Shown here one piece after another: positions 1,899-6,501 of a stretch of DNA of 64,000 bases; the stretch's first letter is position 1; each line of letters opens with the position of its first letter. A program made the translations under genes and the position numbers. The notes under the pieces were generated by a model, which ran no database searches, had not been told where the DNA came from, and worked only from the letters and a program-made list of their open reading frames with translations. The stretch comes from Geobacteraceae bacterium. GTDB taxonomy: Bacteria > Desulfobacterota > Desulfuromonadia > Geobacterales > Pseudopelobacteraceae. The stretch spans positions 1-64,000 of the forward strand of contig JANXZX010000209.1 in NCBI GenBank assembly GCA_025355325.1. Reading direction: 5' to 3'.

Positions 1899-2324
1899 TC
1901 ATCGGGATTCGCCAAATGCATGCTGTTTGATATCTTCATACGGATAATTTGCATAGAGCGTGTCACAGCTTAAAATATGATCCATCAGCCATGAGCTAAT
2001 ATACATTGAGAGTGCCTCAGCGACAGTATGTCCACTTAAAAGTCTTTTTTGAAATCCAATCATTTTAGTCATGAATGCATTATGGTTATCATGATGTTCC
2101 CTCAGAAAAGGATAGTCATGCTCCTTCATCCACTCTTCTTCCGCTGTAAAGTGGTAACGAGCGTAATCCACAAGACTGTTTAATATCTTATTCAGTTCCT
2201 CAATCGGAGCACCATTTTCAATACAAGAATTTGTTTCATTTATTAAAGAGATGAAGTGTTTATGGTGCGAGTCTATTAAGTCGATCCCCAAAACGTAATA
2301 TTCAGTCCAAATAATTTCTCTCAT
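1899..2324 (-). CDS. Bacteriohemerythrin
   Basis: A 141-residue single-domain hemerythrin that binds O2 at a carboxylate-bridged di-iron centre; in microaerophiles and anaerobes such proteins sense, carry or scavenge oxygen. The ligand pattern is visible: DSHHKHF near residue 20, HFTAEEEWM (His plus bridging Glu), HHDNHN, and the C-terminal HILSCD segment supplying the last His and Asp. The start ATG at 2324 has a good GGAGGG ribosome site. It lies downstream of the HD-GYP regulator on the same strand with a 119-base gap, so it may be a separate unit. Confidence 0.88.
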   Translation of the reverse strand: MREIIWTEYYVLGIDLIDSHHKHFISLINETNSCIENGAPIEELNKILNSLVDYARYHFTAEEEWMKEHDYPFLREHHDNHNAFMTKMIGFQKRLLSGHTVAEALSMYISSWLMDHILSCDTLYANYPYEDIKQHAFGESR

Positions 2325-2443: not shown

Positions 2444-3388
2444 TTAACTCGGTTGGCAGCAAGTCACGAATAGATCTACCAAAGCAGGCTCAAGTTCCTT
2501 ACCTTTCATTGAAATAACAAGTTCAAGAGCCTCCTCCTGGGAAAAACGCGGGCGGTAAGGTCGGTCCGAAGAAAGAGCGTCATATACATCGGCAACAGAA
2601 ACAATTCGTGACTCAATGGGGATGTCCTCTCCTCGCAAGCCACATGGATAGCCAGCACCGTCAAATCGTTCGTGGTGATATAAAATTATGTTGATGACAA
2701 CTTCTGAGAGGTTTGCCTTTCTGGCAACATCAGCTCCCCAACTGGAATGGTTCTTCATTAATTCATATTCGGACGCATCGAGTTTTCTGCCAGCGTTAAG
2801 CACATGCTCAGGCACACCGATCTTGCCGCAGTCGTGCAACCAACTGCCGTATTTTATCTCACGCTGCATATCCGTGGACAAGCAGAGAGCCTTTGCGATC
2901 TGTACAGCATAGGAGGCAACTCTGTCACAGTGCCCCCGGGTTTGGGAGTCTTTCAATTCGATGGTCTGAGCAAGTGAATGCAGCACGTCTTCGTTTTCGC
3001 GGTGCATAATCTGCAGGGTGCGGTAACGTCGCAGTGCATCTTTTACTGTATTAAGCATTTCCCTTGGTTCCCACGGCTTGGGAATAAATTTAAATACCTG
3101 GCACTTGTTGATTGCGCAAAGAGTAACCGAAAGGTCGGCATAGGCAGTCATCATAATCTTTACCGTCTCCGGAGATACAGTGTTGGCCTTTTCAATCAAC
3201 TCAAGTCCACCCATAACCGGCATATTATTATCAGAAACAAGGACTGCCACTTTTTCCTGCCCGATATATCTCAGCGCGGCTACCGGATCATTCATAGTAA
3301 CAACATTACATCCTTTGTCCCGGAACACCTCCTCGGCAAATTCGAGGATGGCCCTGTCGTCATCAACAAAAAGAACGGTTTCTAACAT
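2444..3388 (-). CDS. Response regulator with HD-GYP c-di-GMP phosphodiesterase domain (RpfG-like)
   Basis: Two-domain regulator of 314 residues. The N-terminal receiver (about 1-125) has the VLFVDDD acidic pocket, SDNNMP phospho-Asp site and KPWEP lysine. The C-terminal HD-GYP domain carries HDCGKIGVP, the HH pair in LYHHERFDGAGYP, and SVADVYDAL, which are the metal- and substrate-binding motifs of enzymes that hydrolyse c-di-GMP. The start ATG at 3388 is chosen over the upstream TTG because GAGGAGG lies six bases before it. It begins 35 bases after the preceding PAS/GAF kinase and is presumably its partner and co-transcribed, which places it under the riboswitch at 6237-6330. Confidence 0.9.
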   Translation of the reverse strand: MLETVLFVDDDRAILEFAEEVFRDKGCNVVTMNDPVAALRYIGQEKVAVLVSDNNMPVMGGLELIEKANTVSPETVKIMMTAYADLSVTLCAINKCQVFKFIPKPWEPREMLNTVKDALRRYRTLQIMHRENEDVLHSLAQTIELKDSQTRGHCDRVASYAVQIAKALCLSTDMQREIKYGSWLHDCGKIGVPEHVLNAGRKLDASEYELMKNHSSWGADVARKANLSEVVINIILYHHERFDGAGYPCGLRGEDIPIESRIVSVADVYDALSSDRPYRPRFSQEEALELVISMKGKELEPALVDLFVTCCQPS

Positions 3389-3422
3389 CCGTATCCTCCT
3401 CAAGCGTAAATGTAATAAAAAC

Positions 3423-5369
3423 TTACTGCACTACCGGCAGGTAAAACTTAACAGTTGTGCCCTGTCCTTCCTGGCTGTAAAGTTGTACTGCTCCTTTATG
3501 CACGTTGATAATACCGAGTACTGCCGACATTCCCAAGCCTCGACCGGTAAATTTTGTAGAAAAGAATGGTTCGAATATTCTCTGTTTCGTTTCTTCATTC
3601 ATACCGCAACCTGTATCAGTAATTTCCAAACTCAGGTACGTTCCGACCGGAATGCTCTTACCGAAGTAATCCTCTGCGGAGTTTTTCTCATCACTTATAA
3701 TTTTCGTTAGTGTGACAGTAATCTTGCCAGACATTTCTCCGATAGCTTCAACTGAATTGACGAACAGGTTTTTAACAAGCTGTCGCAATTGGCTTGCATC
3801 TGCCGCGATTGGTGGGCAATTTTCTGAAGTATTACATGTAATGGTCACATCCGTGGAAACACCCGATTTCAACATACTGACAGTTTCATCAACTATCGCG
3901 GCCACTTCGACCCGCGCTTCAATAAATTGTGTTTTGCCAGCGTATGCAAGCATTTGGCGGCATAATTCTGTAGCTCTTTCGGCGGCTTTTTCTATGTGGA
4001 TAATGTTATCCTGCGGCCTTACAGGATCATACTTTATGATAGCGCAATAACCGATGATAACCGCCAGAATATTGTTGAAATCGTGAGCTATACCACCGGC
4101 AAGCACACCAAGACTTTCCAATTTTTGGGTCTGCTGGTATTGCTGCTGGAGAGTTAGTCTTTCTTCTTCAATACGCTTACGCACCAACACCGTACCAAGG
4201 TACGATGCAATTTCTTCCAGACGTTCAACAGCGTCTAGCGTGAAACAGTCATTACGCCGGTCATTGAACTGGATCAGGCCTACAATATTTCCACTGTCCC
4301 GGATTGGCACCAATGCAACTGAGGCATAGCCCTGATGTATGCATTCATTGCGAGGATGAAGCCTCGGGTCAGCGCCGGGCGGCAGGTCAAGAAGCGGGAA
4401 AGAATTATTTGTCCAACAACTTCCACCTTCCGTAAAAAGCGGATTTGTCGGGTCAGTCTTTCCACATATAACCAAACCGCAGGTACATTCAAGACATACC
4501 TTACCGTCTATATCCCGGCAAATGCCGCCATCAATAGAACGCTCAATCAGCGAGTTTTCAACCAGCAGAAAATCCTTGGGAAAGCCTTCCTGGACGAAAT
4601 ACGGGAAATCATTCCCATCTTGCAGGCGAATGCCCACTGCATCAAAGCCGGTCCGCTCCTTCAGAGTTGATAGTACCTGAGGAACCAAATCCTCCAGATT
4701 TCCCGGTTTGTTGAGTATTTGCAATACTTCACGGGCCATTTCCCGATATGACTCGGCTCGCTTGCGCTCGGTGATATCCTGAAAGAAGCCGTAGACTCTA
4801 CGGTTTTCCAGATCGGCTTTTCCGATTACATGGATGCTCCGGGAGCGCCCCCCGGCAGTGATAATTTCCAATTCTTCATCGAATGTCTCACCATATTCTA
4901 TTGTTCGTTGTACAACTCGCTCAATAACCGGCCTGGACTCCGTTGTATAAAAGCTTAATCCTTTTTCCAGAGTGGGGTCATAGCGCGAATCCACTTCGAG
5001 AATATTGTACATCTCGTCCGTCCAGGACTGCTTTCCGGAATCAATATCAAACTCCCATCCACCGACCTTGCCAACCTGCTCAGTCTCCGAAAGCAATATC
5101 TGACTTCTTTTTAACGCCATCTCACTTGCAACCAGCGCCTCTTCTGCCTGTCTCCGGGAAAGTGACAGGGCAAGGCCGTCAGCCATTTTTTCAAAACACC
5201 TGATTTGAGAGGGCGTAAAGCAATCCGGGCGGCGATCATTAAACTGCAATAGCCCAATTATCCGGTCAGCAACGCGCAATGGGATCAACGCAAGCGACTC
5301 ATAACCCTGACTAAAGCAGCGGTTGCGAGCATGCGCCTGATTGGGGAATTCAGTAGCATTTGCCAGCAA
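3423..5369 (-). CDS. Histidine kinase, C-terminal portion (GAF-PAS-GAF-HisKA-HATPase) of a frameshifted gene
   Basis: This frame encodes the end of one GAF domain, a PAS domain (GGWEFDIDSGKQSW to FFQDITERKR), a second complete GAF domain with cysteines LECTCGLVICGK, a HisKA box GIAHDFNNI near residue 428, and a HATPase domain with NLFVNSVEAI, DTGCGMNEE and GRGLGMSAV. It should autophosphorylate and signal to the HD-GYP regulator just downstream. The first ATG-like codon lies in the middle of a GAF domain, so this is not a natural start. The frame continues the protein of 5285-6160: the two join seamlessly if one G is restored in the G-run at 5397-5399. The pair is best regarded as one kinase gene spanning 3423-6160, either a pseudogene, a phase-variable gene or a sequencing error. 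Confidence 0.8.
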   Translation of the reverse strand: MLANATEFPNQAHARNRCFSQGYESLALIPLRVADRIIGLLQFNDRRPDCFTPSQIRCFEKMADGLALSLSRRQAEEALVASEMALKRSQILLSETEQVGKVGGWEFDIDSGKQSWTDEMYNILEVDSRYDPTLEKGLSFYTTESRPVIERVVQRTIEYGETFDEELEIITAGGRSRSIHVIGKADLENRRVYGFFQDITERKRAESYREMAREVLQILNKPGNLEDLVPQVLSTLKERTGFDAVGIRLQDGNDFPYFVQEGFPKDFLLVENSLIERSIDGGICRDIDGKVCLECTCGLVICGKTDPTNPLFTEGGSCWTNNSFPLLDLPPGADPRLHPRNECIHQGYASVALVPIRDSGNIVGLIQFNDRRNDCFTLDAVERLEEIASYLGTVLVRKRIEEERLTLQQQYQQTQKLESLGVLAGGIAHDFNNILAVIIGYCAIIKYDPVRPQDNIIHIEKAAERATELCRQMLAYAGKTQFIEARVEVAAIVDETVSMLKSGVSTDVTITCNTSENCPPIAADASQLRQLVKNLFVNSVEAIGEMSGKITVTLTKIISDEKNSAEDYFGKSIPVGTYLSLEITDTGCGMNEETKQRIFEPFFSTKFTGRGLGMSAVLGIINVHKGAVQLYSQEGQGTTVKFYLPVVQ

Positions 5370-6160
5370 GGCACTTGTATTATTTGACCAGAAGCTCCCG
5401 AAGGCGGAAAGAACTGTTTGGTAAGATCGATTTTACCGCATAATATGTTTCCACACATGCATTCGAGTACGGGACTGCCTTCGTCATCTAGTAAAATAGC
5501 GCCGTCGGGAGAATACGCGCAGAGATAGTTTTCCTTTTGAACAAATTCCGGTGGAAAACCGCGTGTCTCATAGTAAGGATAATCGTCTCCGGAGCGGAGA
5601 CGAATACCGACAGCTTCACAACCTGACCAGTTTTGCAGGGACGCTGTCAGAGCAGATATACACTCATGAAGTTCGCTCCGGGAATCGACTAACTGAATCA
5701 ACTGAATGGTCCGCTCTTGTTCTTCTTCGATGGCTTTACGTGCGCTGATATCATTCAACACCACGTGATGTAATCCCACACCGATAGTATCATGCAACCT
5801 ACTGCTCACTATTTGCACCCAGACTGAGGTCCCATCATTTTTTATCATACGTAGTTCGTATGTCTGTGGGGCATCCGTGTGACAAAGCATTTTATCGTGT
5901 TTGTGGTGAATGTTCTGATCTTCAGGAAAGATAAATCGGGTGATTTGCTGGTTGATTAAATTACCGCAGCTTACGCCAAGCAAGAGTGAAAAAGTCAGGT
6001 TGGCCTCAAGAATTATTCCATTTTCGTTTATTGTAAAACTGCCTACTGGTGAAAGATTGTAGCGATTGAAGTATCGGGTTCGCTCAAAGTCCAATTCAGC
6101 TCGCAACCGTCCAATCTCTTCCTTCTGCATCTCCAGCTCTGTATTAGTTTGAGCGTCCAT
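5285..6160 (-). CDS. PAS-GAF sensor, N-terminal portion of the frameshifted histidine kinase
   Basis: Starts at ATG 6160, with GGAGG six bases upstream, 24 bases after a riboswitch terminator. Residues 1-30 form a short coiled coil (ELEMQKEEIGRLRAELDFE); a PAS domain follows (LSPVGSFTINENG to HHVVLNDISARKA) and then a GAF domain with the Cys pair LECMCGNILCGKIDL. After ...FFPPSG the sequence turns into unrelated residues and stops, while the missing remainder of the GAF domain (GSFWSNNTSALL...) is present one frame over in the gene at 3423-5369. The closely similar second GAF domain of the same kinase serves as an internal template for the correct join. No membrane segment is seen, so the sensor is cytoplasmic. 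Confidence 0.8.
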   Translation of the reverse strand: MDAQTNTELEMQKEEIGRLRAELDFERTRYFNRYNLSPVGSFTINENGIILEANLTFSLLLGVSCGNLINQQITRFIFPEDQNIHHKHDKMLCHTDAPQTYELRMIKNDGTSVWVQIVSSRLHDTIGVGLHHVVLNDISARKAIEEEQERTIQLIQLVDSRSELHECISALTASLQNWSGCEAVGIRLRSGDDYPYYETRGFPPEFVQKENYLCAYSPDGAILLDDEGSPVLECMCGNILCGKIDLTKQFFPPSGASGQIIQVPCWQMLLNSPIRRMLATAALVRVMSRLR

Positions 6161-6183
6161 ACATACCTCCGCTGTGCAAAAAC

Positions 6184-6216
6184 AAAAAAACCTGTCTCTT
6201 CGATTGAAAAGGCAGG
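6184..6216 (-). terminator. Intrinsic terminator of the riboswitch expression platform
   Basis: On the minus strand an imperfect hairpin (arms 6207-6216 and 6191-6199; CCTGCC paired with GACAGG, one mismatch) is followed by seven T. It lies between the GEMM aptamer and the ribosome site of the kinase gene at 6160, so it is positioned to stop transcription in the leader. Confidence 0.75.
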
Positions 6217-6236
6217 CCGGACGAGATGGAGACAAA

Positions 6237-6330
6237 CATCCCTTGGTAACCGCTTCGATAACCCCTCTTCCCGTTCTGGGCAGGTGGCTTTGCGTCATCC
6301 GGTTCCCCGGACTTTGCCTTTTCGGTGATA
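6237..6330 (-). ncRNA. GEMM-I cyclic-di-GMP riboswitch aptamer
   Basis: The minus strand carries the conserved GEMM-I blocks in order: GGCAAA (6313-6318), a CCGG stem closed by a GGAA GNRA tetraloop (6299-6310), GACGCAAAGCC (6286-6296), a variable P3 stem, and GGTTACC (6245-6251). The ends pair as a short P1 (ATC.CC with GGGAT). The G before CAAA and the GACGCAAAGCC core match the c-di-GMP-selective class rather than the cGAMP-selective Geobacter variants, which have other bases at these places. It leads the PAS/GAF kinase and HD-GYP regulator transcript. The remaining stretch up to 6501 should hold the promoter, but no convincing -35/-10 pair is visible. Confidence 0.85.
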
Positions 6331-6501
6331 CACTTATATTTGTATACATGATGAGCTTATTGATTCAGTAAGTCAATGAGAAAAATTAGAGGCATTAAAA
6401 TGAGGTTTAGGACTGGTTCTGTGGATGACCATACCAAAAGTTCATTGGCATTTTCAGTTTCTTTCTCGCCAACCTTGACCTGATGCCTCAAGGGGATGCT
6501 G

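Follow-up and report, generated by a model that had tools for sequence, protein, structure and literature searches.

A predicted c-di-GMP-I OFF riboswitch ahead of a kinase/HD-GYP gene array as a candidate double-negative, state-reinforcing loop

Riboswitches of the c-di-GMP-I class, their OFF polarity and the occurrence of GEMM RNAs before cyclase or phosphodiesterase genes are already known. In Clostridioides difficile, class I switches are as a rule OFF switches, and riboswitch control of c-di-GMP metabolism has been called rare (PMC6366702). GEMM RNAs upstream of diguanylate cyclase and phosphodiesterase genes go back to the work of Weinberg and Sudarsan, as related in a review (PMC12564702). 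Furthermore, a G20A change leads the c-di-GMP-I aptamer to accept cGAMP (PMC7288161, PMC6274999).

A leader of this kind is found on the minus strand of the window, that is, the whole stretch of 64,000 nucleotides of a Geobacteraceae genome that was analysed, where it precedes genes for a kinase and an HD-GYP response regulator (Table 1). We regard it as evenly balanced whether this c-di-GMP-I leader turns a kinase/HD-GYP operon OFF by terminating transcription, which would create a double-negative, state-reinforcing loop. The ligand, the switching direction, co-transcription, the activity and substrate of the enzyme, and the pairing of kinase and regulator are the parts of this reading that we infer.

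Table 1. Features of the riboswitch leader and the genes behind it (positions in the window)
Feature	Position	Strand	Basis or remark
Sigma-70-like promoter candidate, TTGACT-17-CATCAT	6348..6376	-	9/12 matches; just upstream of aptamer
c-di-GMP-I (GEMM-I) riboswitch aptamer	6254..6328	-	RF01051; G at the Vc2 G20 site = window 6318
Strand P (GAAAAGGCA), aptamer ligand-binding 5' strand, proposed 5' half of antiterminator	6315..6323	-	Complementarity to T across the 40 leaders, with coupled A-U/U-A change
Strand T (CCTGCCTTTTC), terminator 5' arm, predicted partner of P in antiterminator	6206..6216	-	Leader comparison and folding
Strand H (GAAGAGACAGG), terminator 3' arm	6191..6201	-	Sequence; T tract 6190-6184 next
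Kinase gene, open frame 1 (PAS, beginning of GAF); ATG 6163 preceded by GGAGG	5285..6163	-	ORFs, Pfam
One-base frameshift in kinase gene, place approximate	5405..5413	-	Orthologue alignments
Kinase gene, open frame 2 (GAF, HisKA, HATPase_c); stop 3423	3423..5369	-	ORFs, Pfam
REC-HD-GYP response regulator, predicted cyclic-dinucleotide phosphodiesterase; ATG behind GAGGAGG	2444..3388	-	Pfam, motif alignment
Hemerythrin-domain protein gene	1899..2324	-	PF01814, 57.9 bits; 119 bases after HD-GYP gene

The claim that a GEMM-I aptamer lies ahead of the kinase and HD-GYP genes is borne out by the RF01051 search that the original prediction had named as its check: cmscan matched the whole model with 56.9 bits (E 1.8e-8) against a gathering cut-off of 35 bits. 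In all, the genome contains 11 GEMM-I aptamers, this one among them. The predicted GGCAAA, the CCGG stem with a GGAA loop and GACGCAAAGCC are all present in the leader, while GGTTACC exists but lies at 6244-6250, immediately 3' of the matched aptamer, whose own equivalent is GGTTATC. With regard to ligand class, the alignment places a G at site 20, within GGCAAA (core GACGCAAAGCC), an A at site 47 and the ligand-pairing conserved C of the 3' strand, read from AAAAGGCAAA, GACGCAAAGCC and GGTTATCGAA, respectively. The A at site 20 that marks cGAMP-binding GEMM-Ib RNAs (AAUAC.AAACC core) is replaced by G in this aptamer, the ligand of which is likely c-di-GMP. The promoter candidate just upstream is weak, since such promoter-like sites are no commoner in the aptamer-upstream region than in shuffled sequences.

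A terminator had also been predicted between the aptamer and the kinase gene, and it was located at 6216-6184 on the minus strand, where CCTGCCTTTTC, AATC and GAAGAGACAGG are followed by seven T (computed hairpin energy -10.8 kcal/mol). When 76 genomes of the same family were searched at the DNA level, many homologous leaders were returned, several of them matched through the terminator, and 40 regions were aligned; the P and T columns are complete in all 40, and the terminator 3' arm was read from the raw sequences. Across these leaders, strand P (CGAAAAGGCA) is complementary to the terminator 5' arm T (UGCCUUUUC). Standard pairs fill 88% of the P:T cells, as compared with 35-51% after T has been shifted by 1-3 bases, and the real complementarity was matched in none of 2000 row shuffles. 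The mean energy of the P:T duplex is -13.2 kcal/mol, whereas shuffled sequence gives -8.8 kcal/mol. Immediately 5' of G20 lies a variable aptamer base, which in most leaders is an A facing U and in six a U facing A in T; two further leaders carry the U without compensation in T, and on the leader tree the coupled A-U to U-A change may represent one event or a few. In addition, P is a better match for T than the terminator's own 3' arm in 26 of the 40 leaders and a poorer one in 4, a bias not easily accounted for without selection on the P:T pairing.

Folding of the window leader places the P:T helix (about 8.7 pairs) at the stage when T has been transcribed and H has not yet been made, and forcing the aptamer fold at this point costs 7.1 kcal/mol (-37.0 vs -44.1). 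In the full-length fold the terminator beats P:T (7.6 vs 2.1 pairs), therefore switching would rely on kinetics, and termination could leak in both states. Two other pairings were considered. Pairing of strand H with the aptamer CCUG was rejected, as it offers four pairs, and pairing of T with the aptamer 3' strand appears when P is omitted from the fold; the ligand would block the latter as well, leaving the direction unchanged.

The 40 leaders thus have an OFF layout, in which the terminator stands apart from the aptamer and the predicted antiterminator competes with the ligand-bound aptamer. No alternative pairing by which ligand would block the terminator was found, the terminator strands being outside the aptamer. 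Because the antiterminator uses the ligand-binding strand itself, ligand should favour termination. The original prediction had rightly held that direction cannot be read with certainty; comparison of the leaders makes the direction readable as a predicted OFF.

According to the proposed mechanism, strand P, which includes the ligand-contacting G20 and G21-C22, would pair with T in the absence of ligand, and this antiterminator would allow transcription of the kinase and HD-GYP genes. Binding of c-di-GMP would lock P into the aptamer and free T, whereupon the terminator would form and transcription would stop. Since the final gene product is predicted to be a c-di-GMP phosphodiesterase, high c-di-GMP would lead to less c-di-GMP degradation; when a substrate represses the phosphodiesterase that degrades it, the feedback is positive rather than negative. 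The kinase might provide an override by acting on HD-GYP protein that has already been made.

The product of the HD-GYP gene consists of Response_reg and HD_5 domains (HD_5 113.9 bits, Pfam). Its HD, distal His and HHE...GxGYP motifs are intact when aligned with the solved structures 4mcw, 5z7c and 4r8z, and Gln takes the place of the Glu in the DPETQNH of PmGH. The substrate could be c-di-GMP or cGAMP, between which the sequence cannot distinguish. The gene was predicted to follow the kinase at 35 bases; the gap from the kinase stop (3423) to the HD-GYP ATG (3388) measures 34 bases, and together with the intact core motifs this upholds the prediction. Such a gap would leave little room for a promoter, and a weak promoter-like site is found further upstream at 3508-3536. 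The kinase and HD-GYP genes thus form an operon-like array behind the riboswitch and are predicted to be co-transcribed, and the hemerythrin-domain gene may belong to the same transcript.

The closest relative of the HD-GYP protein that was found in a protein search of named genomes shares 75% identity and comes from a Desulfobulbus sp. MAG (L012), where it lies within a chemotaxis-like cluster. No riboswitch was found at that cluster, which therefore has no bearing on the loop. In-family homologues are at most 53% identical among the matches listed and are uninformative on gene order. In view of these identities, the HD-GYP gene of the window may have undergone horizontal exchange.

The original prediction that a c-di-GMP-type riboswitch heads an array ending in an HD-GYP gene finds a parallel in relatives. 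An HD-GYP gene lies within about 3 kb and on the same strand behind 11 of the 42 leader instances, that of the window included, where the chance per leader would be about 0.6% given about 18 HD-GYP genes in the genome. Because the instances share descent, a binomial figure computed from this does not represent a probability. At least three arrangements occur. In the window the HD-GYP gene stands behind the kinase gene; in L120-L123, four cases of the same RR-HD-GYP and EAL-HDOD pair, the HD-GYP gene comes first and the EAL-HDOD gene next; in L105, L110, L111, L112 and L129 its operon also encodes one or two small unnamed proteins; and in L124 it is the first gene behind the leader. Other targets are PilZ genes (L116, L125, L128, L100) and EAL-HDOD genes (L099, L114, L127, L138), and the only other canonical leader in the genome of the window (L004/L100) precedes the gene of a PilZ-domain protein.

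The operon found behind the canonical leaders L105, L110, L111, L112, L129 and others is conserved. It encodes proteins of 111 aa, with YWMGVRP, and 66 aa, for both of which Pfam gives no match, together with an HD-GYP-like protein that has HDYGM in place of HDxGK. Directly behind the canonical leaders L119, L131, L133, L134 and L135 lie genes for small proteins (about 90 aa) that contain WHVP and hydrophobic stretches, also without a Pfam match.

Eight other leaders of the same genome have the A-containing core of cGAMP riboswitches (AAUACUAAACC...GGACGGAAAGCC or near variants), and one further leader, L001, matches RF03167 (c-di-GMP-I-GGC). In at least four of the cGAMP-type leaders (L003, L005, L009, L010) and in L001 the terminators absorb the aptamer 3' strand, which is an ON layout; L006-L008 and L011 showed no distinct layout. 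Behind L001, L003 and L005-L011 lie cytochrome-like, lipoprotein, RCC1-repeat and transpeptidase-like genes, with L006 and L007 1.4 kb apart. The many cGAMP-type leaders would be in keeping with a relative of Geobacter. Among the 21 GGDEF proteins parsed, the Hypr position, the role of which has been described (PMC6456294), is occupied by Asp in 19, by Ser in one and by Thr in one. Since proteins with Ser or Thr stand beside those with Asp, this bacterium plausibly makes both c-di-GMP and cGAMP. In L163 (G000:C18:10272-10739) Ser and in L168 (G000:C30:26130-26600) Thr replaces the Asp of GHxxGD, and the motif is GGDEF, not GGEEF, as in Hypr cGAMP synthases.

The cGAMP-type leaders of this genome and its GGDEF protein that carries Ser at the Hypr site would fit the strongest alternative, which grants a real OFF riboswitch but no closed loop: the HD-GYP enzyme would be inactive, would degrade cGAMP or would be expressed mainly from another promoter, and the operon would be an ordinary c-di-GMP output. 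One relative of solved structure, 5z7c, is an HD-GYP enzyme specific for cGAMP, and both the weak promoter-like site and the Gln described above would fit this explanation. We consider it rather unlikely, as the core motifs are intact, the short intergenic gap leaves little promoter room, and canonical leaders recur before HD-GYP, EAL-HDOD and PilZ genes.

The conserved P:T pairing, which predicts OFF and hence positive feedback, speaks against the original title of a candidate homeostatic loop, in which c-di-GMP would turn the operon ON and excess signal would yield more phosphodiesterase. That version is improbable also in view of the position of the terminator, which lies outside the aptamer, unlike in the ON-type leaders of the same genome, and of the failure to find a pairing through which ligand would block it. 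It does share the gene set and the aptamer as described, ON switches of the c-di-GMP-I class exist, e.g. Vc2 (PMC12564702), and the weak antiterminator of the full-length fold leaves it some room.

The kinase had been described as a PAS/GAF kinase, and Pfam finds PAS, GAF, HisKA and HATPase_c; the domains are therefore as predicted, but the gene is not a single open frame. The two frames overlap at 5285-5369, whereas intact single-frame orthologues exist in two relatives (G036, 957 aa; G010, 959 aa). In tblastn searches with these orthologues the frame switches between DLTK..F and GSFW, and nucleotide alignment shows that the window is one base short near the site given in Table 1. The window kinase also lacks the C-terminal receiver that its orthologues carry. 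Upstream of the G036 orthologue there is the same kind of leader, while no canonical leader was detected at the G010 orthologue, and neither is followed by an HD-GYP gene. The gene that comes next after the orthologues has c-di-GMP-I-GGC matches upstream (L181, 4182-4258, 47.3 bits; L180, 5055-5131, 45.2 bits), both below the gathering cut-off of 59. Through a polar effect, the frameshift may also reduce distal gene expression. That the operon is decaying, with the kinase a pseudogene and the regulation left with little present function, is very improbable: the frameshift set against intact orthologues would agree with it, but the aptamer, antiterminator, terminator and HD-GYP frame are all intact, and in a draft assembly of 241 contigs a sequencing or assembly error is as likely as a true mutation.

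If the double-negative loop holds, c-di-GMP would guard itself against breakdown by switching a phosphodiesterase off, which would offer a simple route to two stable cell states. A broader and more tentative proposal, which we think somewhat likelier to fail than to hold, concerns the whole family: canonical c-di-GMP-I OFF switches, with the ligand-binding strand as antiterminator, would repress phosphodiesterase, EAL-HDOD and PilZ genes at high c-di-GMP in a bistable manner, and cGAMP riboswitches in the same cell would be ON, giving opposite outputs from sister signals. An internal contrast is present within one genome, where c-di-GMP-type leaders appear to be built OFF and several cGAMP-type leaders ON.

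No description of the P:T expression platform or of the family-wide target set was found in the literature searched. The Cd1 riboswitch of the Clostridioides difficile flgB operon resembles the window leader in its c-di-GMP-I aptamer, separate terminator and OFF control via a competing antiterminator (PMC9262584, PMC6366702), OFF being only predicted for the window leader. However, the Cd1 antiterminator is P[AT], formed with the aptamer 3' strand (P/A/T/H notation, PMC9262584), whereas that of the window is P:T, with the 5' ligand-binding strand; and Cd1 targets flagella, the window leader the kinase/HD-GYP operon. The pilM and other Geobacter GEMM-Ib cGAMP riboswitches, eight such leaders being present in this genome, belong to the same RF01051 superfamily, but they have A at site 20 and ON-type terminators overlapping the aptamer (pilM layout, PMC9262584), in contrast to the G and the separate terminator seen here. 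The HD, distal His and HHE...GYP motifs of the HD-GYP protein align with PmGH (4mcw), PA4781 (4r8z) and V-cGAP3 (5z7c), and PmGH differs in the Glu of DPETQNH. The GEMM RNAs before cyclase or phosphodiesterase genes share with the window a riboswitch ahead of a c-di-GMP turnover gene, while the window type is seen repeatedly within one family, where the predicted OFF platform is common to the leaders and the gene arrangements number at least three. Although such metabolic control has been called rare (PMC6366702), one leader type recurs here before HD-GYP, EAL-HDOD and PilZ genes, and its predicted direction is legible from comparative sequence.
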